Shown: piece after piece, positions 10,098-25,894 of the stretch | Numbering within the stretch: the stretch's first letter is position 1 | Layout of the letters: every line of letters starts with the position of its first letter | DNA from: a bacterium | GTDB taxonomy: Bacteria > Chloroflexota > Dormibacteria > Aeolococcales > Bog-877 | Assembly: GCA_021844355.1 (NCBI GenBank) | Contig: JAKBTP010000101.1 | Span: 1-34,483 of the forward strand | Direction of reading: 5' to 3' | Length of the DNA stretch: 34,483 nucleotides | Made by a program: the position numbers and the translations under genes | Notes under the pieces: model-generated | The model's input: only the letters and a program-made list of their open reading frames with translations | The model's database searches: none | Told to the model about the DNA's origin: nothing

Positions 10098-10164
10098 TTG
10101 ACTCCCTTGACCCCGTGGGGGTAACATACATAACGTCACCTTTATGAAAGAAGTCTTTAAGTGA
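10098..10164 (+). promoter_or_regulatory. Promoter and six-codon leader ORF before the arsR-ino1 operon
   Basis: The leader has tandem -35-like hexamers TTGACT (10098) and TTGACC (10107), part of a CCTTGACYC direct repeat. An AT-rich stretch, ACATACATAACG, contains candidate -10 elements; TAACGT (10131-10136) is 18 nt from TTGACC. ATG 10144 opens a short ORF (MKEVFK) whose TGA overlaps the ArsR GTG start as GTGA. ArsR-type repressors usually bind around such sites, so this is also the likely operator region. Confidence 0.4.
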
Positions 10165-10604
10165 GCAGAGTCGGCTCGGACCGTGCCCGCCCCACCCGCC
10201 AGATCCTCCCGCTGGCTCTCACCCCCCTGGTGGAGGGAGACCTCGCCACCTACTTCGAGGGGCTGGCCAACCCCACCCGGCTGCACATAGTGGAGCGGCT
10301 GGCGCAGGTGAAGGAGGCCCGGGTCTCGGACGTGGCGATGCTCCTCGGGATCAGCCAGCCGCGGATGTCCTGGCACCTGCGCCTGCTGCGCCGCGCGGGC
10401 CTGGTCCTGACCCGCCGGGAGGGCCGCGAGGTCTTCTGCCGGCTAGATCGCACGTCGATCGCGGAGAACCTCTCCGCGTTCACGGCCCTGCTGGCCGGTG
10501 ACGGTCAGCCCGGGCTGGCCGAATCCAGGCTCGGCCCGGCCGAGACCATCAATCCGCCGTCCCCACGTCATGGCGTGGAGCGGTCGCTTCCGGAGGTGAT
10601 CTGA
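10161..10604 (+). CDS. ArsR/SmtB-family transcriptional regulator
   Basis: A 147-residue winged-helix repressor. The segment [63 protein letters not shown] (about residues 34-96) is a complete ArsR HTH and wing. The classical metal-binding ELCVCD motif in the recognition helix is absent, so it likely senses something other than As or Cd. The Shine-Dalgarno of the following ino1 gene (GGAGGTGATC) lies within its last codons and only 1 bp separates the two genes, so they are co-transcribed. By position it probably controls inositol lipid synthesis, perhaps in response to redox or a metabolite; this is inference. Confidence 0.88.
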
Positions 10605-13100: not shown

Positions 13101-14269
13101 TCCGGGTGGGGATGGTCTCGCCCTATGACTACCAGCGGCCTGGCGGGGTTGGCGAGCATGTCCGCCACCTCGCCGAGGAGCTGCGGCGGCGCGGGCATCT
13201 GGTCAAGGTGCTGGCCCCGGCTGCCGGCGGCGAACGGTTGGATGTGGAGGGGTTGATCCCGCTCGGGCGGCCCATTCCCTTCCCCGCCAACGGCTCGGTG
13301 GCCAGGATCTCTCTCTCGTTCCATCTCACCCGCCGGATCCGTTCGGTCCTCGCCGAGGAGGCCTTCGACGTCATCCACATCCATGAGCCCCTCATGCCGG
13401 CTCTGCCGATCACCGTCCTCCGGCTGAACCAGGCCAGCGCCGCGGTTGGCACCTTCCATGCGTACGCCCGCCAGAACCTCGGGTACTACTACGGCCGTCC
13501 GCTCCTGCGTCGGCAGTTTCGCCATCTGGACGCCTGCATCGCGGTGTCGGAGCCGGCACGGCGCTTCGTGGCCCGCTACTTCCCCGGCGACTACACGGTG
13601 ATCCCCAACGGGATCGACCCTCAGCGGTTCCACCCGGAGGTGGCCCCCAAGTCTGGCATCAGAGACCCGCGGCGCACGACGATCCTCTTCCTGGGCCGCC
13701 TCGAGGAGCGAAAGGGGCTGTCCACCCTTCTCGACGCCTACCAGCTGCTCCGCCAGGTGCGCACCGACTGCCAGCTGGTGGTCATCGGGGACGGCCCGCT
13801 GCGCCGGGGGTACGAGAGGCGGGTCGAGGAGGAGGGGATCCCGGACGTCCGGTTCCTCGGGTTCGTCCCCGAGGAGGAGAAGCCCGCCCACCTGACCGCC
13901 TGCGACATCTATTGCGCCCCCAACACGGGCAAGGAGTCCTTCGGGGTGATCCTGCTGGAGGCCATGGCCAGCGGCCGCCCGGTGGTGGCGACCGCTATAG
14001 ATGGGTTCCGCCAGGTTCTCACCGACGGCCAGGAAGGGCTGCTGGTCCCCAAGGGGGATGAGGGGCAGATGGCCCGCGCCCTCGCCCAGCTGCTCGATCA
14101 TCCGGAGCTTCGCCTCGAGATGGGGCGGCGAGGCCGGATGACAGCCGAGCGTTACGCCTGGCCGCTGGTCGCGGACCGGGTGCTTCAGGTTTACCGTAGG
14201 GCGCTGCGCCAGCGCTCCTCCCAAGAGGTGCAACCAAGTGTTCAGCAGACTGCTCCAGGCCTCCGTTAG
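13097..14269 (+). CDS. pimA: PimA-like GT4 glycosyltransferase (phosphatidylinositol mannosyltransferase)
   Basis: A 390-residue GT-B fold glycosyltransferase of family GT4. The N-terminus SPYDYQRPGGVGEHVRHLAEEL closely follows the PimA/MshA pattern for binding the nucleotide-sugar and the inositol acceptor. The C-terminal domain has FLGRLEERKGLSTLLDA and the E-x7-E motif GKESFGVILLEAMASG. In mycobacteria PimA transfers mannose from GDP-mannose to the inositol 2-OH of PI at the inner membrane face. The GTG start overlaps the upstream stop (GTGA), and the PI-synthase-like gene overlaps its 3' end by 32 bp, so all three are coupled. The donor sugar is inferred; a related GT4 such as MshA is the main alternative, less likely in this lipid context. 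Confidence 0.85.
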   Translation: MIRVGMVSPYDYQRPGGVGEHVRHLAEELRRRGHLVKVLAPAAGGERLDVEGLIPLGRPIPFPANGSVARISLSFHLTRRIRSVLAEEAFDVIHIHEPLMPALPITVLRLNQASAAVGTFHAYARQNLGYYYGRPLLRRQFRHLDACIAVSEPARRFVARYFPGDYTVIPNGIDPQRFHPEVAPKSGIRDPRRTTILFLGRLEERKGLSTLLDAYQLLRQVRTDCQLVVIGDGPLRRGYERRVEEEGIPDVRFLGFVPEEEKPAHLTACDIYCAPNTGKESFGVILLEAMASGRPVVATAIDGFRQVLTDGQEGLLVPKGDEGQMARALAQLLDHPELRLEMGRRGRMTAERYAWPLVADRVLQVYRRALRQRSSQEVQPSVQQTAPGLR

Positions 14270-14915
14270 GGCGGCCGCCCAGCGGCTGGCCGCCGCCAGC
14301 CGGCTGGTGGGCCTCAGCCCCAACGCCATAACCCTGATCGGGCTCGCCATCGCCGGCGGCGCGGCGGCCCTCGCGGCCCTGGACCTCCAGCTGTGGGCAG
14401 GGATCGTTCTGCTCCTGGCGGGGGCCTTCGACATCCTCGACGGGGCCGTGGCCCGCGAGTCCGGCCGGGTCCACCCGTTCGGCGCCTTCCTGGACAGCAC
14501 CGCCGACAGGTACGGGGAGGGGGTGCTCTACGCCGGCCTGGCCTACCTCTTCCTCGCCCACCTCCACCAAGAGGTCCCGGTTTTTCTGATCGTGGCAGCG
14601 CTCTTCGGCTCCCTCCTGGTGAGCTACGTGCGGGCCAGGGCGCAGTCCCTGGGGTACACCTGCGACGTGGGCTGGTTCGCCCGCCCGGAGCGTGTGGTGA
14701 TCACGGCCCTCGGGCTGATGCTGGGGCTGATGGTGCCGGTCCTCTGGATCCTGGCGGTCGCCACCAACCTCACCGCCCTGCAGCGGATCCACGCCGTTTA
14801 CCGGCAGTACCGAAAGGCTCAGGATCAGGCGGCTCCCGCGGCCCCCGCTGAGGGGATCCCGGAGCCCGCGCCGGACCCCAGGCGGCGCCGCGGCGCCGCT
14901 CCCAGCTCTCCCTGA
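14238..14915 (+). CDS. CDP-alcohol phosphatidyltransferase, probable phosphatidylinositol(-phosphate) synthase
   Basis: A 225-residue polytopic membrane enzyme with about six hydrophobic segments. The CDP-alcohol phosphotransferase signature D-x2-D-G-x2-A-R-x8-G-x3-D-x3-D is complete (DILDGAVARESG... FGAFLDSTAD, about residues 65-90). It would join CDP-diacylglycerol to inositol-1-phosphate, giving PI-phosphate for dephosphorylation, as in actinobacteria. The GTG start at 14238 has GAGGTG 7 nt upstream and lies within pimA. The C-terminus is an Ala/Pro/Arg-rich tail. The assignment to inositol rests on synteny with ino1 and pimA; a separate PgsA at 25980 makes phosphatidylglycerol-phosphate the less likely product here. 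Confidence 0.85.
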   Translation: MFSRLLQASVRAAAQRLAAASRLVGLSPNAITLIGLAIAGGAAALAALDLQLWAGIVLLLAGAFDILDGAVARESGRVHPFGAFLDSTADRYGEGVLYAGLAYLFLAHLHQEVPVFLIVAALFGSLLVSYVRARAQSLGYTCDVGWFARPERVVITALGLMLGLMVPVLWILAVATNLTALQRIHAVYRQYRKAQDQAAPAAPAEGIPEPAPDPRRRRGAAPSSP

Positions 14916-14958
14916 CCAGCGGACCCTTTCGAACTTCGGATCTCCGACCAACCGGGGG

Positions 14959-14975
14959 TTTCCACCTAGTGGAAA
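14959..14975. promoter_or_regulatory. Perfect 7-3-7 operator-like palindrome upstream of glpF
   Basis: TTTCCAC-CTA-GTGGAAA is a perfect inverted repeat 21 bp before the -35 of the glp-dha operon. It is AT-richer than the surroundings and typical in size for a dimeric regulator. Its position upstream of -35 suits an activator or an upstream repressor. No regulator gene for the cluster is adjacent. A partial half-site (CCACTTGG, 14988-14995) follows. Confidence 0.6.
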
Positions 14976-14996
14976 GCAGGTGTAATCCCCACTTGG

Positions 14997-15026
14997 TTGA
15001 CTATTCACTGGTCCCGGGTCTACTCT
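14997..15026 (+). promoter_or_regulatory. Sigma70-type promoter of the glp-dha operon
   Basis: TTGACT (14997-15002) and TACTCT (15021-15026) are separated by 18 bp, giving a transcription start near 15033 and a leader of about 67 nt before ATG 15100. GGAGGGA at about 15084-15090 serves as the Shine-Dalgarno. All eight genes downstream run in the same direction with short gaps or overlaps. Confidence 0.5.
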
Positions 15027-15099
15027 CTGCCTGCCGACCCGTGGGCTGCCGTCAGCCACGTCGCTCGGTCGAGAGCCGATCAGAGGAGGGACAGGTAGC

Positions 15100-16056
15100 A
15101 TGGCGATGGAGTACACGCCGCTGCACGGGGAGGGGAGATCCTTCGCCGGGCTGAGCGGCCTGTTTGGCGAACTCATGGCCGAGGTCTTCGGCACCCTGAC
15201 GCTGATCGCCTTTGGGGACGGCGTGGTGGCGGTGGCGGTGGCGGGCCTCCCCGAATCCGGGCGCACCGCCGGGCCCACGGTGATCTTCCAGGCGGGCGGC
15301 GACTGGCTGCTCATCACCTTCGGGTGGATGTTCGCGGTGGTCATGGGCATCTACGTGGCGGGTGGAATCACCGGCGCCCACCTCAACCCGGCCGTGACCC
15401 TGGGGCTGGCGGTGCGCCGCAAGTTCCCCTGGAACAAGGTCCTCCCCTACATGGGGGCGGAGCTGGTGGGGGCGATCTTCGGCGCCCTCATCGTCTACAT
15501 GGTGTACGGGCCCGCCATCCAGGCCTGGGACCTGGCGGCCAAGACGGTGCCGGCGGCGGGCAACGCTCTGGCCAGCTACTCGATCTTCGCGACCTTCCCG
15601 GCCCCCTACTTCCACGGCAGCGTGGTGGGGCCGCTGGTGGACCAGATAGTGGGCACGGCGTTCCTTCTCATCCTGGTGCTGGCGATCACCGACGGCCGCA
15701 ACCTGGCGCCGGCGGGGAACATGGGCCCCTGGCTGGTGGGCGCCGCGGTGGGCGCCATCGGCATGTCGTTTGGCCCCAACGCCGGATACGCCATCAACCC
15801 CGCCCGTGACTTCGGGCCGCGCTTTGTGGCCTGGCTCTTCGGCTGGGGCAAGGTGGCCTTCCCCGGGACCTACAGCGCGGGGGCGTTCCACTTCTCCAAC
15901 TACTTCTGGATCCCGATAGTGGGGCCGCTGGTCGGCGGGGTAATCGGGGTCCTGCTCTACGACTACTTCATCGGCGATGTACTGGCCTCCCGGCTCAAGA
16001 AGGGCGAGGGCGAGCCCCCGCAGGGACGGGTGACCAGCGAAAGCCAGCAGTCGTAG
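15100..16056 (+). CDS. glpF: Aquaglyceroporin, glycerol facilitator
   Basis: A 318-residue MIP-family channel for passive glycerol entry across the cytoplasmic membrane. Both half-helix motifs are present: [11 protein letters not shown] in the first repeat and [10 protein letters not shown] in the second. The Asp after the second NPAR is the classical marker of glycerol-conducting GlpF over water-only aquaporins. Several further transmembrane segments are visible ([52 protein letters not shown]). The protein is longer than E. coli GlpF because of N- and C-terminal extensions. It is the first gene of the glycerol/DHA operon, behind a promoter and palindrome, and the dihydroxyacetone kinase gene starts 16 bp after it. 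Confidence 0.95.
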
Positions 16057-16072: not shown

Positions 16073-17074
16073 GTGAAGAAGCTGATCAACCGACCTGAGG
16101 ACGTGGTCCGGGAGGAGCTGGAGGGGATCGCCGCCGCCCACTCCGACCGGGTCAGGGTCTCCCTCGACCCCTACTACGTGATGAGGGCGGACGCCCCCGT
16201 CCAGGGCAAGGTGGCGGTGGTCTCCGGCGGGGGCTCGGGCCACGAGCCGATGCACGGAGGCTTCGTGGGCATGGGCATGCTGGACGCGGCCTGCCCCGGG
16301 GAGGTCTTCACCTCCCCGACCCCGGACCAGATACTGGCCGCCACCAAGGCGGTCAGCGGGGGGGCCGGGGTGCTCCACATCGTCAAGAACTACACCGGGG
16401 ACATCCTCAACTTCGAGATGGCCGCCGACCTGGCCAAGGAGGACGGGATCCTGGTGGAGGCGGTGGTGACCAACGACGACGTCGCCGTCCAGGACAGCCT
16501 CTACACCGCGGGCCGCCGCGGGGTCGGGGTCACCGTCCTGGCCGAGAAGATCTGCGGTGCGGCTGCCGAGGGCGGCCGGTCCCTCAGCGAGGTGGCCGAG
16601 CTCTGCCGCAAGGTCAACGCCAACGGCCGCACCATGGGCATGGCCCTCACCTCCTGCACGGTGCCGGCGGCGGGCAAGCCCACCTTCGAGCTGGGCGAGG
16701 ACGAGATGGAGCTCGGGATCGGGATCCACGGGGAGCCCGGCCGGGAGCGGCGCCAGCTGGCGACGGCCGACGAGATCGTGGAGGTGCTGGCCACCACCGT
16801 CGTGGATGACCTGCCCTTCAAGTCGGGCGACAGGGTCCTGGCCTTCGTGAACGGCATGGGCGGGACCCCGCTGATCGAACTCTACGTGGTCTACCGCGCG
16901 CTGGACCGCTTCCTCAAGGGGCGGGGGATCGCCATCGAGCGGAACCTGGTGGGACCCTACATAACGTCGTTGGAGATGGCCGGCACCTCGATCACCCTGC
17001 TCCGGCTCGACGACGAGCTGGTGCGGCTCTGGGACGCGCCGGTCAACACCCCCGGCCTGCGCTGGGGGGCCTGA
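16073..17074 (+). CDS. dhaK: PTS-dependent dihydroxyacetone kinase, substrate-binding subunit DhaK
   Basis: A 333-residue protein that binds dihydroxyacetone covalently as a hemiaminal and presents it for phosphorylation to DHAP. The key residues are visible: H219 in GIGIHGEPG (substrate-linking His), D110 in [12 protein letters not shown] and H57 in [13 protein letters not shown]. The length matches PTS-type DhaK, not the fused ATP-dependent kinase. The GTG start at 16073 follows glpF by 16 bp. It works with DhaL (next gene) and the DhaM-type phosphodonor at the end of the operon. All catalytic positions are intact. Confidence 0.95.
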
Positions 17075-17126: not shown

Positions 17127-17765
17127 ATGGGGGCGGGATACCCCGAGAGCCTCTCTATGGTGCGCGGCTTCGCCCAGGCTGTCGCCGCCAATCGCGAGTA
17201 CCTGACTCAGCTGGACGCCGAGATCGGGGACGCCGATCACGGGATCAACATGGACCGGGGGATGAGCGCCGTCGTTCCCAAGGTGGAGGCCCTGACCGAC
17301 CACGACATCTCCGGCCTCTTCCGGACCGTGGCCATGACCCTCATCTCCACGGTGGGCGGGGCCAGCGGCCCCCTGTACGGCACCGTCTTCCTCCAGCTCG
17401 CCTCCAGCCTCAAGGGAAGGTCGGAGGTCGGGCTGGGGGAGTGGGCGGAGGCGGTCTCGGCCGCGGTGGCCGCGGTCCAGTCACGGGGGAAGGCGCAGCC
17501 CGGGGACAAGACCATGGTGGACGCCCTGCTGCCGGCCGCGGAGGCGCTCCAGGCGGCGCAGGCGGAGGGGGTGCCCTTCTCCGAGGGGCTCGCCCGAGCC
17601 ACCAAGGCGGCCCACGGGGGCATGGAGGCCACCATCCCGCTGGTGGCCCGCCGGGGACGGGCCAGTTACCTCGGAGAGCGGAGTGCGGGGCATCAGGATC
17701 CGGGGGCGACATCCTCCTGGCTCCTGATGGAGGCGGCGGAGGCCGCGTTCGCGAAGGGGAAGTAG
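17127..17765 (+). CDS. dhaL: Dihydroxyacetone kinase ADP-binding subunit DhaL
   Basis: A 212-residue all-helical subunit that holds ADP as a permanent cofactor; DhaM phosphorylates the bound ADP and DhaL passes the phosphate to DHA on DhaK. The Mg2+-binding aspartates are at D30, D35 and D37 (LDAEIGDADHGINMDRG), the same spacing as E. coli DhaL. The C-terminal RRGRASYLGERSAGHQDPGATSSWLLM is a family hallmark. The start at 17127 has GGGGAGGGG upstream. It follows dhaK by 52 bp. Because it uses bound ADP, it needs the PTS phosphodonor encoded at 23399. Confidence 0.95.
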   Translation: MGAGYPESLSMVRGFAQAVAANREYLTQLDAEIGDADHGINMDRGMSAVVPKVEALTDHDISGLFRTVAMTLISTVGGASGPLYGTVFLQLASSLKGRSEVGLGEWAEAVSAAVAAVQSRGKAQPGDKTMVDALLPAAEALQAAQAEGVPFSEGLARATKAAHGGMEATIPLVARRGRASYLGERSAGHQDPGATSSWLLMEAAEAAFAKGK

Positions 17766-17819
17766 GCGGGCGGAGCGCCGCGGGGGGCGCGGCGGAGGAA
17801 AGCTAGCGGAGGTGGCGTG

Positions 17820-19316
17820 ATGGCCAAGTACGTGGGTGCCCTGGACCAGGGCACCACCAGCACCCGGTTCATGATCTTCGATCATTCCGGGAACGTGATC
17901 GCGGTGGACCAGAAGGAGCACGAGCAGATCTACCCCAAGCCGGGGTGGGTCGAGCACGACGCCATGGAGATCTGGACCCGCAGCAAGGAGGTGATATCGG
18001 GGGCGCTGGCCAAGGCCGGCATCCAGCCCTCCGACCTGGCCGCCGTCGGGGTGACCAACCAGCGTGAGACCACGGTGATCTGGGACAGGACCACCGGTCG
18101 GCCGGTGCACAACGCCATCGTCTGGCAGGACACCAGGACCGACACCATCTGCAACGACCTGGCCAAGGACGGGGGCCAGGACCGCTTTCGGGAGAAGGTG
18201 GGCCTGCCGCTGGCCACCTACTTCTCCGGCCCCAAGATCCGCTGGGTCTTGGACAACGTCCCCGGGGTGCGGGAGCGGGCCGAGAGGGGCGAGGTGGTCT
18301 TCGGCAACATCGACAGCTGGTGCATCTGGAACCTCACCGGCGGGGTGAACGGTGGACTGCACCTCACCGACGTCACCAACGCCAGCCGCACCATGCTGAT
18401 GAACCTCAAGACCCTGGACTGGGACCCCGAGATCCTCGCGATCATGGGGGTGCCGCGGGCGATGCTGCCCGAGATCCGGCCGTCCAGCCAGATGTACGGG
18501 GAGTGCAAGGAGGGGGTGCCCGGGGTTCCGGTGGCCGGTGACCTGGGCGACCAGCAGGCGGCCATCTTCGGGCAGACCTGCTACTCGGTGGGGGAGGCCA
18601 AGAACACCTACGGGACCGGGAACTTCCTTCTGCTCAACACCGGCACCAGCCCGATCCAGTCCAAGAACGGTCTTCTGACCACCCTCGGCTACAAGATCGG
18701 CGACCAGCCGGCGGTCTACTGCCTCGAGGGCTCGATCGCGATCACCGGTGCCCTGGTGCAGTGGCTGAGGGACAACCTGGGGATGATCAGCCAGTCCTCG
18801 GACATTGAGAAGCTGGCGGCCACGGTGGAGGACAACGGCGGGGTCTACTTCGTGCCCGCCTTCTCCGGCCTCTTCGCCCCCTACTGGCGCAGCGACGCCC
18901 GGGGCGTGATCGCCGGCCTCACCCGCTACGTCAACAAGGGGCACATCGCCAGAGCCGTCCTGGAGGCGACCGCCTGGCAGACCCGCGAGGTGGTGGACGC
19001 CATGAACCAGGACTCGGGCGTCGCCCTGACCTCCCTCCGGGTGGACGGGGGCATGGTCCACGACGAGCTCCTCATGCAGTTCCAGGCGGATGTCCTCGGA
19101 GTTCCGGTGATCCGGCCCAAGGTGGCCGAGACCACCTCGCTGGGCGCCGCCTACGCCGCCGGGCTGGCGGTGGGCTTCTGGACCCAGCTGGACGAGCTCC
19201 GGGCCAACTGGGGGGTGGACCGGACCTGGGAGCCCCGGATGGACTCCGAGCTCCGGGAGAAGGAGTACAAGCTCTGGAAGAAGGCCGTCACCCGCACCTT
19301 CGACTGGGTGGAGTGA
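17820..19316 (+). CDS. glpK: Glycerol kinase
   Basis: A 498-residue FGGY-family kinase that phosphorylates glycerol to sn-glycerol-3-phosphate with ATP, trapping it after GlpF entry. Typical segments are [18 protein letters not shown] (phosphate loop), [33 protein letters not shown] and [11 protein letters not shown], with the FGGY signature region [18 protein letters not shown]. The ORF track begins at GTG 17817, but ATG 17820 has the better 6-nt spacing from GGAGGT (17808-17813). It is full length with no damaged motif. It sits between dhaL and glpA, linking uptake to the GlpABC oxidation step. Confidence 0.96.
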
Positions 19317-19338: not shown

Positions 19339-20895
19339 GTGAACACGCTGGACACCGACGTCCTGGTGATCGGGGGAGGCTCCACCGGGGCGGGGGTGGC
19401 GTGGGACTCCGCGCTGCGGGGTCTCCACGTCACCCTGGTGGACCGGCAGGACTTCGCCACCGGGACCAGCGGCCGCTTCCACGGCCTGCTGCACTCCGGG
19501 GGGCGGTACGCGGTCAAGGACCCGGGCTCGGCCCGCGAGTGCGCGGCCGAGAACCGGATCCTCCGCCAGGTAGCCGCCGACTGCATCGAGGACACCGGGG
19601 GGCTGTTCGTCAGCACCCCCGAGGATGATCTGGAGTACGCCGACCGTTTCCTCGCCGCGGCCAGGGCTGCGGGGATGGAGGTCGAGGAGGTCCCGGTGGG
19701 CACCGCGCTACGGGACGAGCCCCGCCTCAACCCCAAGATCCGGCGGGCCTTCCGGGTCCAGGACGGCTCGATCGACTCCTGGAAGATGGTCTCTGCCCTT
19801 CTCCGGGGGGCCGAGGCCCACGCGGCCACCGTCCTCCCGTATCACAAGGTCGTCGAGGTGCTGCGCCACGGCGACCGCGTCGAGGGGGCGGTGATGGAGG
19901 ACCAGCGCACCGGGCAGGAGGTGCGGGTCCACGCCGGGTGCGTCGTCAACGCCGCCGGCGCCTGGAGCGGACAGGTGGCCCGCCTGGCCGGCTGCGAGGT
20001 CGGGGTGCGTCCGGGCAAGGGGGTGATGGTGGCGATCAACCACCGGCTGGCGCGGGCGGTCCTCAACCGCTGCCACCTGCCCTCGGACGGCGACATCATC
20101 GTCCCCGTCCGCACCGTCAGCGTGATCGGGACCACCGACCACCCGGTGGCCGACCCGGACGACACGGAGTGCAGCCCGGAGGAGGTGCACCAGATGATCG
20201 AGGCGGGCGAGCTTCTGGTGCCAGGGTTCAGGGAAGCCCGGGCGCTGAGGGTCTGGGCCGGCTCCCGGCCACTCCTCCCCAAGACCGGGGGCTCCGCGGG
20301 GGCGGGCGACCGAGAGGTGAGCCGCTCCCACACCGTGCTGGACCATGGGGCCCGGGACGGGCTGGAGGGGCTGGTGACCATCGCCGGGGGGAAGTTCACC
20401 ACCCTGCGCCTCATGGCCGAGGACACCGTGGATGTGGTGGTGCGCAAGCTCGGGCGAGGGTCGGAGTGCCGCACCCGCACCGAGGTTCTCCCCGGGAGCG
20501 AGTCCCGTCACTTCTACTGGATCGGGAACCGCCAGCAGGAGGCGGAGACCGATCCGCCCGATGACCCTCTCATCTGCGAGTGTGAACTCGTGTCCCAGCA
20601 TGACCTGGACACCGTCGTGGCCCGGCGCCCCACCTGGCGGCTGGATGACATCCGCCGAGCCCTGCGGGTGGGGATGGGCCCCTGCCAGGGCGGCTTCTGC
20701 GCCTTCCGGGTGGCCGGCATGCTGCATCAGGAGGGCAGGTACGGCCGGGCCGAGGCGAACTCGGCGCTCCGGGAGTTCGTCCAGGAGCGCTGGAAGGGGG
20801 TCAAGGTGATCTCCTGGGGCGCCCAGGCGCGGCAGACCCGGCTGGACCGTTGGATCTTCGAGGGGCTGTACGACCTGGAGCATCTTCCCGAGTGA
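19339..20895 (+). CDS. glpA: Glycerol-3-phosphate dehydrogenase subunit A (FAD and [2Fe-2S])
   Basis: A 518-residue flavoprotein, the catalytic subunit of the GlpABC complex that oxidises G3P to DHAP and passes electrons to quinone. The N-terminal FAD-binding loop is VLVIGGGSTGAGVAWDSALRG (about residues 8-28), followed by GRFHGLLHSGGRYAVKD. A C-terminal BFD-like [2Fe-2S] domain is present, with cysteines in CECE (about 413) and GPCQGGFC (about 450). That domain separates GlpA from the shorter aerobic GlpD. The start is GTG at 19339, 22 bp after glpK. With glpB and glpC next, the complex is complete. Confidence 0.94.
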   Translation: MNTLDTDVLVIGGGSTGAGVAWDSALRGLHVTLVDRQDFATGTSGRFHGLLHSGGRYAVKDPGSARECAAENRILRQVAADCIEDTGGLFVSTPEDDLEYADRFLAAARAAGMEVEEVPVGTALRDEPRLNPKIRRAFRVQDGSIDSWKMVSALLRGAEAHAATVLPYHKVVEVLRHGDRVEGAVMEDQRTGQEVRVHAGCVVNAAGAWSGQVARLAGCEVGVRPGKGVMVAINHRLARAVLNRCHLPSDGDIIVPVRTVSVIGTTDHPVADPDDTECSPEEVHQMIEAGELLVPGFREARALRVWAGSRPLLPKTGGSAGAGDREVSRSHTVLDHGARDGLEGLVTIAGGKFTTLRLMAEDTVDVVVRKLGRGSECRTRTEVLPGSESRHFYWIGNRQQEAETDPPDDPLICECELVSQHDLDTVVARRPTWRLDDIRRALRVGMGPCQGGFCAFRVAGMLHQEGRYGRAEANSALREFVQERWKGVKVISWGAQARQTRLDRWIFEGLYDLEHLPE

Positions 20896-20929
20896 CGGCA
20901 GGGCGGCGCGGTCCCTGGAGGAGAAGGTG

Positions 20930-22183
20930 ATGGGGACGGACGCGGTGGTGCTCGGCGCCGGGACGGCGGGGATGGTGGCGGCGCTGCGGCTGGCGGCCGC
21001 TGGGGCGTCGGTCCTGGTCCTGGCCGAGGGCGAGGGCGGGCTGCCGCTGGCGCCGGCGCAGATCGATGTGCTCGGCTACCGGCCACAGCTGGTCCTGGAT
21101 CCCCTGGGCGAGCTGGCGGGCTTCCTGGAGTCCCGGCCCGACCATCCCTACCAGCTGGTCGAGGCGGGCGAGGTTGGGGCCAGCCTGGACTGGTTCCTGG
21201 AGCTGTCGGCGCCCCTGGGGTACACGGGAAGCCCCCGCCTCAACCGGCTGCAGCCCACCGGCCTGGGGGCGCTTCGCCCCACCTGCCTGGTGCCCGAGAC
21301 CATGGCGGCCGGGGACCTCAGCGACGGCGGGTCGGTGCTGGTGGTGGGGCTCAGAGGATTCCGCGACTTCCACGCTCCGCTGCTGGCCGAGAACCTGGCC
21401 CTCGCGCACCCGCCCTCGGGGGCAGAGGTCCGCGCCCGGGCGGTGGAGGTGAGCCTACCTGGGGATCCCCGGGACCTCAGGCCCCAGCTGCTGGTGCGGC
21501 GCCTAGAGGAGCGGGGGGTGCTGGCGGAACTGGGGCGGGAGATCCGCTCCCGCCTGGAGCAGGAGGACCTGGTGGGTGTGCCCGCGGTCCTGGGGCTGGA
21601 GAGCTCCCACGAGGTCTGGCAGGGGCTCCAGGAGCTGGTCGGCAGGCCGGTCTTCGAGATCCCCACCCCGCCACCCTCCCAGCCCGGTCAGCGGCTGCAG
21701 CAGCACCTCTTCCGCGCGCTGCGCCGGCTCGGCGGCGAGGTGCGGCTGGGGGCCCGGGCCGCCGGGTATCGGGCCCGTGGCGATCGGTTGGTGGCGGTCA
21801 AGGTGGTGACGGCGGCGCGGGAGGTGGAGATACCGGCCGACCACTTCGTCCTGGCCACGGGGGGCATCGGCACCGGGGGAATCACCGCCGGCCCCGACGG
21901 GGAGCTGCGTGAGGAGGTGTTCGGCGCCCGGGTCTCCCGGGGAGGGGCGCCGGAGCAGCCGCTGGTCGAGTACATGGCGACCCAGCCGCTGGACCGGGTC
22001 GGGGTGGAGGTCGACGAAGAGCAGAGGCCCCTGGGAGGGGGCGGCGGGGCGCTCTTCGAGAACCTCTGGGCGGCGGGGGCGGCGCTGGCGGGCGCGGAGC
22101 CCTGGCGCGAGAAGTCCGGGGAGGGGATCAGCCTGGCGACCGGATTCCGGGCCGCTCGACTGGCCGGGGGGGCGCGGGCATGA
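20930..22183 (+). CDS. glpB: Glycerol-3-phosphate dehydrogenase subunit B
   Basis: A 417-residue flavin-binding subunit of GlpABC. The Rossmann loop VLGAGTAGMVAALRLAAAG is at the N-terminus, and a C-terminal FVLATGGIGTGGI segment fits a GlpB/FAD-reductase-like fold. In E. coli, GlpB is required with GlpA for activity and membrane attachment through GlpC. GTG 20927 and ATG 20930 are both possible starts from the same GGAGG (20917-20921); ATG is chosen. The stop overlaps the glpC start (ATGA). The sequence is divergent from E. coli GlpB, so position between glpA and glpC is a major part of the assignment. Confidence 0.88.
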   Translation: MGTDAVVLGAGTAGMVAALRLAAAGASVLVLAEGEGGLPLAPAQIDVLGYRPQLVLDPLGELAGFLESRPDHPYQLVEAGEVGASLDWFLELSAPLGYTGSPRLNRLQPTGLGALRPTCLVPETMAAGDLSDGGSVLVVGLRGFRDFHAPLLAENLALAHPPSGAEVRARAVEVSLPGDPRDLRPQLLVRRLEERGVLAELGREIRSRLEQEDLVGVPAVLGLESSHEVWQGLQELVGRPVFEIPTPPPSQPGQRLQQHLFRALRRLGGEVRLGARAAGYRARGDRLVAVKVVTAAREVEIPADHFVLATGGIGTGGITAGPDGELREEVFGARVSRGGAPEQPLVEYMATQPLDRVGVEVDEEQRPLGGGGGALFENLWAAGAALAGAEPWREKSGEGISLATGFRAARLAGGARA

Positions 22184-23412
22184 CCGAGCTGGCCTGGGGG
22201 GCGGAGGCGTGGTCCGAGGTCCGGGCCTCGCTGGACCGCTGCATCAAGTGCACCGTGTGCGAGACCGCCTGTCCGGTGGCCGCGGTCACCGAACTCTTCC
22301 CCGGCCCCAAGACCGTCGGCCCCCAGGCCGAGCGCTTCCGCACCGGTGGCCACTCGCCGGACCTCTCGGTGGACTACTGCTCCGGCTGCGGTATATGCAG
22401 CCGGGTGTGCCCCCAGGGGGTCCGGATCGCCGAGCTCAACTCAAGGGCCCGCTCCGAGCTCAAGCGGGAGCGGGGGGTGCCCCTTCGTGACCAGCTGGTG
22501 GCGCGCCCAGGGCTGCTGGGGCGGTTCGGGCGTCCTGTCGCCCCGCTCTTCAACCGGGCCATGGCCAACTCCCTGGTCCGCTGGGCGGGCGAGCGCACCA
22601 TCGGCATTCACCGCAGGGCGCCCGTGCCCCGCTCCACCACCCGCACCTTCTCCCACTGGGTAGGGCACCACGCGGGCACCAAGTCGGCTCGCCGGGTGGT
22701 CTACTTCCATGGCTGCAGCACCCAGTGGTACGAGCCCCACGTCGGCCAGAAGGTCACGGCCATCCTGGAGCACAACGGCTACCAGGTGATCATCCCCAAG
22801 CAGGACTGCTGCGGGCTGCCGTTGCAGTCCAATGGGCTCTTCCCCGCCGCCCGCAAGGCGGTGACCAGGCTGGCGCGGCAGCTGGTCCCGGACGCCACCG
22901 GCGACCTTCCGGTGATCTCCTCCTCCACCAGCTGTGGCCTGATGCTCAAGCGGGAAGCCCGCGAGATCCTGGGTGCGGACTCCCCCGAGCTGCGCTCGGT
23001 GAGCGCGCGCACCTATGACATCTTCGAGTTCCTGCGGGAACTCCACCAGCGGGGCGAACTCCGAACCGACTTCAAGCCGGTGCCGCTCACCGTGGCGTAC
23101 CACGCTCCCTGCCAGCAGCAGAACCAGTTGATCGGTAAGCCGGCGCTGGAGATCCTCCGGCTCATACCGGGGCTGAGGCTGGTCGAGCTCGATCGCTCCT
23201 GCTGCGGCATCGCCGGGACCTACGGGGTCAAGAGGGAGAAGTACGAGATCGCCATGCGGGTGGGGAAGCCGCTCTTCACCGACATCCAGGCCGAGGGGCC
23301 GGACCTCGTGGCCTGTGACAGCGAGACCTGCCGCTGGCAGATCTCGGCGGCCACCGGAGCCACCTCGGTCCATCCGCTCGAGATCCTCCACCGGGCCTAT
23401 GGCGGCAGCTGA
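22180..23412 (+). CDS. glpC: Glycerol-3-phosphate dehydrogenase subunit C (iron-sulfur/CCG protein)
   Basis: A 410-residue electron-transfer subunit. Two [4Fe-4S] motifs are seen: C21-x2-C24-x2-C27-x3-C31 (CIKCTVCETACP) and C67-x2-C70-x2-C73-x3-C77 (CSGCGICSRVCP). Two CCG domains follow, with DCCGLPLQSNG and RSCCGIAGTYG. This is the architecture of GlpC and heterodisulfide-reductase-like proteins; it anchors GlpAB and delivers electrons to menaquinone or ubiquinone. No clear transmembrane helix is present, as in other GlpC. The start overlaps the glpB stop (ATGA), and its last 14 bp overlap the DhaM-type gene. Confidence 0.93.
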   Translation: MTELAWGAEAWSEVRASLDRCIKCTVCETACPVAAVTELFPGPKTVGPQAERFRTGGHSPDLSVDYCSGCGICSRVCPQGVRIAELNSRARSELKRERGVPLRDQLVARPGLLGRFGRPVAPLFNRAMANSLVRWAGERTIGIHRRAPVPRSTTRTFSHWVGHHAGTKSARRVVYFHGCSTQWYEPHVGQKVTAILEHNGYQVIIPKQDCCGLPLQSNGLFPAARKAVTRLARQLVPDATGDLPVISSSTSCGLMLKREAREILGADSPELRSVSARTYDIFEFLRELHQRGELRTDFKPVPLTVAYHAPCQQQNQLIGKPALEILRLIPGLRLVELDRSCCGIAGTYGVKREKYEIAMRVGKPLFTDIQAEGPDLVACDSETCRWQISAATGATSVHPLEILHRAYGGS

Positions 23413-25894
23413 GTCGCCCCCGGACCACGTCCGCCTGGTCCTGGTCTCCCACAGCTCCCAGCTGGCGGCCAGCGCTGCCGCTCTGGCCGCGGCCATGGCA
23501 CCGGAGGTGCTGGTGCTGCCGGCCGGCGGGGTGGGGGAGGACCCGGCCGTGCTGGGGACGGACGCCAAGCGGGTGGCGGAGTCCATCCAACGCGCCTGGT
23601 CCCCTGCCGGAGTGGTCGTCCTCATGGACCTGGGCAGTGCCGTCCTCTCGGCCGAGCTGGCGCTGGAGCTGCTCCCCGAGGGGCGGCGCCAGGGGGTCCG
23701 CCTCAGCTCCGCCCCGCTGGTCGAAGGGGCGGTGGCTGCGGCGGTGGCCGCCCAGGGGGGAGCGGACGTCGCCCAGGTGGTCCGGGAGGCGGAGGCGGGG
23801 CTCGCCGGGAAGCGTTCCCAGCTGGGCGACGCCCCCACCACTCCCCAGACCGGACCCCGCGGCGAGGAGAACGCCGGGTGGAGGGGGCTGACGGTGCGGG
23901 TGGACCTTCCCATGGGGCTCCACGCCCGGCCGGCGGCCCGGGTGGTCCAGCAGCTGGCGGGGCTGGACGCGGAGGTCCGGGCCACCAACGTCACCACCGG
24001 TGAGGGACCGGTCAGCGCCCGCAGCCTCAACGCCCTCGCCACCCTGCAGGTGGCGCCATCCCAGCTCCTCCTGTTCGAGGCCCGAGGGGCGGACGCGGAG
24101 CAGGTGCTCGGCCGGCTCGGCGAGCTGGCCGGCCGAGCCTTCGACGACCTGGAGGAGGCCGCCCCGGCGGCCCCAACGGAGGTCGCCGGGACGCCTCTCG
24201 CCCCCGGGGTCCTCGTGGGTCTGCCGGCTTCCCCCGGCGCCGCGGTGGGTGAGGTGGTCCACCTGGTACAGGCTGAGCTGGTGGTCCACGACCGGTTGCC
24301 CGGGCCTCCGCAGCGGGAGCTGGGCTCCCTGGAGGGCGCCCTGGGGGCCGTCCGGGAGGAGCTGAGGGAGCTGCGCGAGCGGACGGCCGGGCGATCGGGC
24401 AACTATGCCGCCGCCATCCTGGACGCCGACCTCCTCTTCCTGGACGACCCGGAGCTCTCCGGGCGGGCGCGGGAGGCGATCTCCGCCGGAGGAGTGACCG
24501 CGGAGGCCGCCTGGCAGGCTGCCGCGGAGGCCGCCCGCGCCAGCTGGGAGAGGGTCGCCGACGCCCGGCTGCGTCTCCGGGCCGCCGACCTGGACGGGGT
24601 GGCCCGGAGGGTGCTGGCCCACCTGCTGGGGTCACCTGAGGTGGTGCCGACCGGGACAGGCGTGCTGGTCGCCGAGGATCTGACCCCCGCGGACACCGCC
24701 CAGCTCGACCCGGCGTCTGTCCTCGGGATCGCCACCGCGGCCGGGGGCCCGACCTCGCACAGTGCCATCCTGGCGCGGACCCTGGGCATCCCGGCGGTGG
24801 TAGGGGTGGGGAAGGGGCTGCTCGAGCTTCCCGCCGGCCGGACGGTGCTCCTGGACGGTGACCGGGGAGTGGTCCGGCTCGACCCGACGGAGGAGGAGAG
24901 GGAGGCCGTGGGGAAGGAGGCGGCCCGGCGGGCCGAGGCCAGCCGCGCCGCCTCTAAGAAGGCGAGCCGCCCGGCTCGGACCCGGGACGGGACGGCGGTG
25001 GAGGTGGCGGCCAACATCGGGTCGGTGGCGGACGCCCGTGCCGCGGTCCTGGCCGGCGCCGACGGGGTGGGGCTCCTGCGGACCGAGTTCCTCTTTCAGG
25101 ACCGACCGGTCCTGCCCGACGAGGAGGCGCAGTTTCGCGAGTACAGCGAGATCGCCGTGGCCCTTCAGGGCCGGCCACTCACCATTCGCACGCTGGACGT
25201 GGGCGCGGACAAGCCCCTTGCGTCGCTGCCCCGGGACCCCGAGCCCAATCCGGCCCTCGGGGTGCGCGGCCTGCGCCTGGGCCTCGCCCGGCGAGACCTC
25301 CTTAGGACCCAGCTGGCGGCGGTGGCCCGGGTGGCGGCCGAGCACCGGGTCCGGGTCATGTTCCCCATGGTGGCCACGGTGGGCGAGGTGCGCAGCGCGC
25401 GCGAGCTCTTGGCGGCGCTCCCCGCGCCCGACCAGAGGCCAGGGGTCCCACCGCTGGAGGTGGGGATCATGGTCGAGGTTCCGGCGGCTGCGCTGGCCGC
25501 GGACCGGCTGGCCGAGCTGGTCGACTTCCTGTCGATCGGCACCAATGACCTCTCCCAGTACACCATGGCCGCCGACCGGGGAAACGGCGGGCTGCGGGGA
25601 CTGGCCGACCCCCTCCACCCGGCGGTCCTCCGCCTCATCCAGCTGACCGCGGCGGCCGCCACGGGGGCGCGCTGGGCGGGGGTCTGCGGCGAGCTGGCGG
25701 GGGACCCACTGGCCACCGAGCTGCTGATCGGGCTGGGGGTGAGGGAGCTGTCCGCCGCGCCGCGGCTGGTGCCGGGGGTCAAGGAGGCGGTTCGTGCCTG
25801 CACCCTCGCGCGGGCCCGGCGGCTGGCCGAGCGGGCACTTCAGCTGCCCGACGCCGATGCGGTTCGGGAGCTGCTCAAAGAGCCTCGCCGCTGA
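23399..25894 (+). CDS. dhaM: DhaM-HPr-Enzyme I fusion: complete PEP-to-DHA phosphotransferase chain
   Basis: An 831-residue, three-part phosphotransferase. Residues about 10-135 are a DhaM/EIIA-Man domain with active H18 (LVLVSHSS) and MDLGSAVLSAE. About 163-250 is HPr with H175 (MGLHARPAA). About 265-830 is Enzyme I with phospho-H454 (GGPTSHSAILAR), R561 (GLLRTEFLF), SIGTNDLSQYTMAADR and C763 (GVCGELAGD). E. coli DhaM keeps only part of EI, whereas here the PEP-binding C-terminal domain is intact, so the protein could take phosphate from PEP and pass it EI-HPr-DhaM to DhaL-bound ADP alone. The ORF track starts at 23315; ATG 23399 is the correct start because similarity begins at residue 11. 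No separate ptsH or ptsI is seen in the window. Confidence 0.94.
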   Translation: MAAAESPPDHVRLVLVSHSSQLAASAAALAAAMAPEVLVLPAGGVGEDPAVLGTDAKRVAESIQRAWSPAGVVVLMDLGSAVLSAELALELLPEGRRQGVRLSSAPLVEGAVAAAVAAQGGADVAQVVREAEAGLAGKRSQLGDAPTTPQTGPRGEENAGWRGLTVRVDLPMGLHARPAARVVQQLAGLDAEVRATNVTTGEGPVSARSLNALATLQVAPSQLLLFEARGADAEQVLGRLGELAGRAFDDLEEAAPAAPTEVAGTPLAPGVLVGLPASPGAAVGEVVHLVQAELVVHDRLPGPPQRELGSLEGALGAVREELRELRERTAGRSGNYAAAILDADLLFLDDPELSGRAREAISAGGVTAEAAWQAAAEAARASWERVADARLRLRAADLDGVARRVLAHLLGSPEVVPTGTGVLVAEDLTPADTAQLDPASVLGIATAAGGPTSHSAILARTLGIPAVVGVGKGLLELPAGRTVLLDGDRGVVRLDPTEEEREAVGKEAARRAEASRAASKKASRPARTRDGTAVEVAANIGSVADARAAVLAGADGVGLLRTEFLFQDRPVLPDEEAQFREYSEIAVALQGRPLTIRTLDVGADKPLASLPRDPEPNPALGVRGLRLGLARRDLLRTQLAAVARVAAEHRVRVMFPMVATVGEVRSARELLAALPAPDQRPGVPPLEVGIMVEVPAAALAADRLAELVDFLSIGTNDLSQYTMAADRGNGGLRGLADPLHPAVLRLIQLTAAAATGARWAGVCGELAGDPLATELLIGLGVRELSAAPRLVPGVKEAVRACTLARARRLAERALQLPDADAVRELLKEPRR

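Follow-up and report, generated by a model that had tools for sequence, protein, structure and literature searches.

The promoter of the glpF-led glycerol operon in the window, that is, in the whole 34,483-nt stretch of DNA analysed, probably carries an ordinary, operon-specific transcription-factor site. As judged from sequence comparison, this putative operator would consist of two related blocks ~22 bp apart, at 14956-14967 and 14978-14989, the right one of which runs into the -35 hexamer of the glpF-dhaKL-glpKABC-dhaM promoter. A perfect 17-bp palindrome overlaps the left block and is probably coincidental. The features referred to below are the following.

10161-10604: ArsR/SmtB-family regulator gene, beside inositol-phosphate synthase
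14238-14915, + strand: CDP-alcohol phosphatidyltransferase gene, the upstream neighbour, with its stop at 14915
14956-14967, + strand: left block GGGTTTCCACCT of the putative operator, from the untuned best 12-bp inverted repeat; its core ACCT is nearly invariant in the genus
14959-14975, no strand: palindrome TTTCCAC-CTA-GTGGAAA (7-3-7), left arm partly conserved, right arm varying between species
14968-14977, no strand: variable 10-bp stretch between the blocks, containing the palindrome's right arm
14978-14989, + strand: right block AGGTGTAATCCC, the imperfect inverted partner of the left block (10/12)
14978-15001, + strand: right block plus -35, RGGTRNWWNCCNCANNNGGTTGAC, at the glpF promoter of 12/12 g1/g2 genomes
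14997-15002, + strand: -35 hexamer TTGACT, mean pair identity 0.96 in the genus and kept in g2
15021-15026, + strand: likely -10 hexamer TACTCT, 18-bp spacer, as suggested by the alignment
15082-15090, + strand: Shine-Dalgarno-like AGAGGAGGG of glpF, by sequence
15100-16056, + strand: glpF, MIP-family channel, ATG at 15100
16073-17074, + strand: dhaK
17127-17765, + strand: dhaL
17817-19316, + strand: glpK
19339-20895, + strand: glpA
20927-22183, + strand: glpB
22180-23412, + strand: glpC
23315-25894, + strand: open frame of a DhaM-like EIIA(man)-HPr-EI fusion, whose true start is probably further in

The window is contig 60 of a draft genome (G000; 1.94 Mb, 85% complete). G000 belongs to genus g1, which is represented by eight species (G000-G007; completeness 84-93%), and the promoters of these were aligned with those of the g2 genomes G008, G012, G015 and G017. 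The sample of family f1 comprised 18 genomes, 12 from g1 and g2 and six of other genera (G010 among them), and f2 is another family within the same order. All genomes compared are draft MAGs, and the species are few and related.

The promoter proposed by the sequence-only reading is credible, because its -35 and -10 hexamers with their 18-bp spacer are conserved across the genus. It did not pass a strict sigma-70 consensus scan, and its transcription start would lie near 15033. In the g1/g2 promoter alignment, the -35 and the sequence directly upstream of it were strongly conserved. Among the eight g1 species, the mean pair identity was 0.95 for AGGTG and 0.88 for TAATCCCCACTTGG in the right block, and 0.68 for the 5'UTR of glpF. 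The block cores, CACCT (14963-14967) and AGGTG (14978-14982), flank the variable stretch. We searched the 18 f1 genomes for RGGTRNWWNCCNCANNNGGTTGAC with up to two mismatches, and each of the 12 g1/g2 genomes had it before glpF at 0-1 mismatch. Elsewhere in the 18 genomes there were five matches, each with two mismatches and in differing places, and none was in the own genome; the six f1 genomes of other genera, including G010 with its 69% identical glpF, gave no match. This occurrence at the glpF promoters of g1 and g2, and otherwise only as scattered two-mismatch matches, makes the element operon-specific. The expectation that a cis element would track the glpF-dhaK promoter is thus borne out by the conserved blocks and the -35, in 12/12 g1/g2 genomes. 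When the right block was searched for without the -35, no recurrent second promoter was found. The distance of the element from the -35 is 18 bp for the right block and 40 bp (G000) or 41 bp (G015) for the left block, whereas the distance from the upstream gene to the -35 is 81 nt in G000 and 212 nt in G015. Since the former is constant and the latter is not, the element is tied to the transcription of glpF and not to where the upstream transcript ends.

The symmetry of the blocks was examined by looking, in the 62 bp that precede the -35, for the 12-bp inverted repeat with the best pairing; this dyad search was not tuned to the blocks. With modest P values, unadjusted for the testing of more than one symmetry, the search returned GGGTTTCCACCT and AGGTGTAATCCC in G000 and G006 and their equivalents in G004 and G005 (10/12, P 0.01-0.02), and in the same places the blocks were direct repeats in G007, G015 and the g2 copy of G012 (P 0.01, 0.02 and 0.10, respectively). 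In the divergent G001, the search returned the re-paired GAAACTACCTGC and GTAGGTGGTTTC (10/12, 0/300 shuffles), and in several pairs of this dyad both sides were altered together. Neither an inverted nor a direct repeat of the blocks was clear in G008. Because the blocks are inverted in some genomes and direct in others, the arrangement as two related blocks is better supported than any one symmetry.

Several other strings were noted. GGGAGGAAGCCCCACTTGG or a near variant, with three mismatches to the right block, occurs in six f1 genomes (G007:C14, G002:C148, G004:C69, G001:C36, G011:C91 and G014:C59), in all of them away from glpF. TTTCCACTCCTGTGCAGA or a near variant was found once in nearly every f1 genome (in the own genome at G000:C13:1867-1884, L133) and may be either a conserved site or a conserved coding segment. 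Directly after the upstream gene, relatives carry CGAACTTAGGTTCG, which is shaped like the Gram-positive LexA (SOS) box CGAAC-N4-GTTCG; it is perfect in G002, G003, G004, G005 and G007, and the window has a degenerate CGAACTTCGGATCT at 14930-14943. This LexA-like 14-mer occurs 0-10 times per f1 genome, about as often as a reversed control, and may therefore be due to chance or ancestry. Among the ten papers listed by a literature search with the exact strings, there were only unrelated uses of CACCTAGGTG.

The palindrome was what the sequence-only reading had put forward as the recognised site, and its description of the palindrome is accurate: 14/14 arm bases pair at 14959-14975, outside genes, and the palindrome ends exactly 21 bp before the -35 TTGACT. 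It also lies in an AT-richer patch as claimed, with 47% G+C compared to 61% for the 184-bp intergenic region between the stop at 14915 and the glpF ATG at 15100. A scan of the own genome did not turn up many random copies, as there was no other place with fewer than three mismatches; a regulon marked by the 17-mer was rejected on the same ground. At three mismatches, there were 17 further places in the own genome compared to 13 for a reversed-pattern control, each palindrome being counted once. A count of perfect inverted repeats with arms of 7 or more and loops of 10 or less gave 54 in the window and 54-60 in five shuffles of it. At least one such repeat occurred in 14% of shuffles of the intergenic region, or in 7% when loops were limited to 4. 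Since inverted repeats of this kind are at chance level, the palindrome alone carries little weight.

Comparison of the eight g1 species revealed that the right arm of the palindrome has 0/7 invariant columns and a mean pair identity of 0.57, below that of the 5'UTR, and ranks with the most variable parts of the promoter, and that the spacer CTA has a mean pair identity of 0.92. The 7-3-7 pairing is 7/7 in G000, 6/7 in G002, 5/7 in G003 and G006, 4/7 in G004 and G005, and 0/7 in G001 and G007, and the palindrome is absent from the g2 genomes. The palindrome is therefore not conserved before orthologous clusters, and with a variable right arm and a 7-3-7 form that is not kept, the 17-mer is unsupported as the recognised site. 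G005 has a perfect 7-4-7 form, TTTTCACCTAGGTGAAAA, in which the 7-bp arms are one base further apart; this form pairs 6/7 in G004 and 5/7 in G003, so that a real inner dyad is still conceivable in some members of the genus. In most of the 18 f1 genomes, matches to this form were about as many as those to the reversed control, and within the genus, matches at 0-1 mismatch occurred only at glpF of G003, G004 and G005. A zero-mismatch 7-4-7 copy in G010 (L124) was rejected as a candidate, as it is located where a uracil-DNA-glycosylase-like frame begins and not near glp genes; at 1500-1530 of L124, near the start of this frame, a perfect TTTCCACGATGGTGGAAA precedes another GGTGGAAAAG repeat. Before more distant glpF genes, from Streptomyces and others, we found no match to the palindrome or the right block save a three-mismatch match in L077.

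These data bear on the possibility that a dimeric repressor or activator uses the 17-bp palindrome itself as its operator, with the half-site TTTYCAC and a spacer of 3 or 4. The 14/14 pairing and the presence of a dyad at this spot in ~5/8 species, in shifting registers (7-3-7 and 7-4-7), are consistent with such an operator. We nevertheless consider it unlikely, as the right arm lacks any invariant position, G006, G007 and G001 have only a broken palindrome and g2 has none, the palindrome is at chance level on its own, and a shift of the spacer from 3 to 4 would be hard on a fixed protein dimer. Within the two-block putative operator, the palindrome is instead probably a species-specific coincidence, which most likely results from the junction of the left block with the variable stretch.

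A shift between 3 and 4 bases would suit the loop of an RNA hairpin, and the outer dyad is the predicted minimum-energy RNA fold in 7/8 species, most strongly in G001 (z -4.44). The element might thus form a hairpin at which, as in a tailless terminator, transcripts of the 14238-14915 gene end, or by which they are protected. However, z is only -0.02 to -2.2 in the other seven species, a scan of 14850-15120 revealed no T run and no terminator-like site, and an Rfam scan gave no match. Moreover, the element is placed relative to the glpF -35 and not to the upstream stop codon, and it is the sequence that is conserved, not pairing alone. We therefore regard a hairpin as quite improbable. Least probable is that no regulator binds, the palindrome being chance and the conservation that of an extended core promoter, since, although palindromes of such size are at chance level and the strongest conservation adjoins the -35, the conserved CACCTA and AGGTG, found 14-38 bp upstream of the -35, are not part of the core hexamers, and their conservation is common to two genera.

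We thus favour the two-block putative operator. Both blocks would be bound by an operon-dedicated transcription factor that acts as a dimer or binds in tandem and may respond to glycerol, glycerol-3-phosphate or dihydroxyacetone phosphate. The geometry makes an activator somewhat likelier than a repressor, because the centre of the site is near -60, with the right block adjoining the -35, and the -10 is poor. The target for pull-down or mutagenesis is corrected to 14950-15002 with its two blocks, rather than the 17-mer alone.

Two loci outside the window were also examined. In G004, glpF alone looks replaced (L057, 5811-6963, compared with window 14958-16056). The G004 GlpF is 77% identical to that of the window and the neighbours pgsA, dhaK and glpK are 95-96% identical; compared with the near-identical sister G003, DNA identity falls from ~98% to 65-88% from the operator onward. 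G004 retains the promoter and the putative operator despite this apparent replacement. The g2 bin G012 contains a 4.5-kb contig (L046, G012:C9) that is 95% identical to the window and 100% identical over 211 bp around the promoter. As the same bin also has a g2-type glp locus on C208, G012:C9 is probably a misbinned g1 contig.

The sequence-only reading had also stated that no DhaR, GlpR or similar regulator is encoded nearby. By Pfam, the window has none of these, nor an IclR-family regulator, and to this extent the statement holds; an ArsR-family HTH gene, however, lies 4.4 kb upstream. Its place is kept in five g1 members and in the g2 genome G015 (63% identical), and it is the only regulator-like gene with a kept place near glpF in both genera. 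Nothing links this gene to glycerol, and it is only a candidate because its own upstream region does not have the putative operator. The DeoRC domain (PF00455) was found in none of the eight g1 genomes (84-93% complete) and was present in 10/14 control genomes. No UTRA domain (PF07702) was found in G000 or G006, and its presence in other genomes is patchy; because the own genome is 85% complete, the absence there is not final. In draft genomes, single absences of a regulator are weak, but an absence across eight is not. The own genome has one IclR_C gene, on another contig (C133). Genes for GylR-like IclR and DeoR/GlpR-type regulators were not found in the genus, which agrees with the earlier suggestion that the cognate factor lies outside the usual glycerol regulators. 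No paper combining Dormibacterota, glycerol and a transcriptional regulator was found.

The putative operator can be compared with that of GylR, an IclR-family regulator with an 18-bp operator at the Streptomyces glp operon (PMC9732521). Both are local operators at the promoter of a glpF-led glycerol operon. In the order-level relatives of f2, an IclR-family gene is divergent from glpF; this orthologue is 55-76% identical among most f2 genomes and at most 35% identical in f1, and its best match in the own genome had an E value of only 1.7e-4 at 26% identity. A CATTGTCAA-type site lies over the -35 in 6/7 f2 promoters tested, on either strand (GGGCATTGTCAA on one, TTGACAATGCCC on the other), and the seventh f2 glpF promoter had no such GylR-type match. 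These sites have 3-5 mismatches to the 21-bp consensus of Streptomyces GylR, with P values of 0.005-0.03 in three and ~0.11-0.14 in three. A GylR operator was rejected for the window's own promoter, where the consensus YGKTCRRCATTGYCGAAYVVS has 7/21 mismatches (P 0.96); six other g1 promoters tested had 6-7 mismatches. The systems therefore differ in that the f2-type IclR orthologue was not found in f1 and that the GylR consensus matches no better than chance here. It is possible, and we propose it tentatively, that in family f1 of Candidatus Dormiibacterota, GylR-type IclR control, which order-level relatives retain, has given way to an unrelated regulator that is dedicated to the operon and has a new two-block putative operator. 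The replacement could be, for example, the ArsR-family protein with the kept upstream place, or an unlinked factor. If found, such a regulator would provide a documented case in which the glycerol regulator changed between two families of the same order; most of what is known of this phylum comes from metagenome bins.

The DeoR-family GlpR of glycerol-3-phosphate regulons likewise controls glp genes, but differs in that no DeoRC-domain protein was found in the eight g1 genomes. The sites of HutC-type GntR regulators have the form GGT-N4-ACC, and this shape is shared by GGTTTCCACC of the left block and by the g2 blocks GGTAGTTACC and GGTATTTACC. This likeness is a lead only, as the inner bases differ and no UTRA-domain protein was found in the own genome or G006. 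With intrinsic and tailless terminators, the element shares an inverted repeat in the 3' flank of a gene; it differs from them in having no T run and in its position, which is tied to the downstream promoter.
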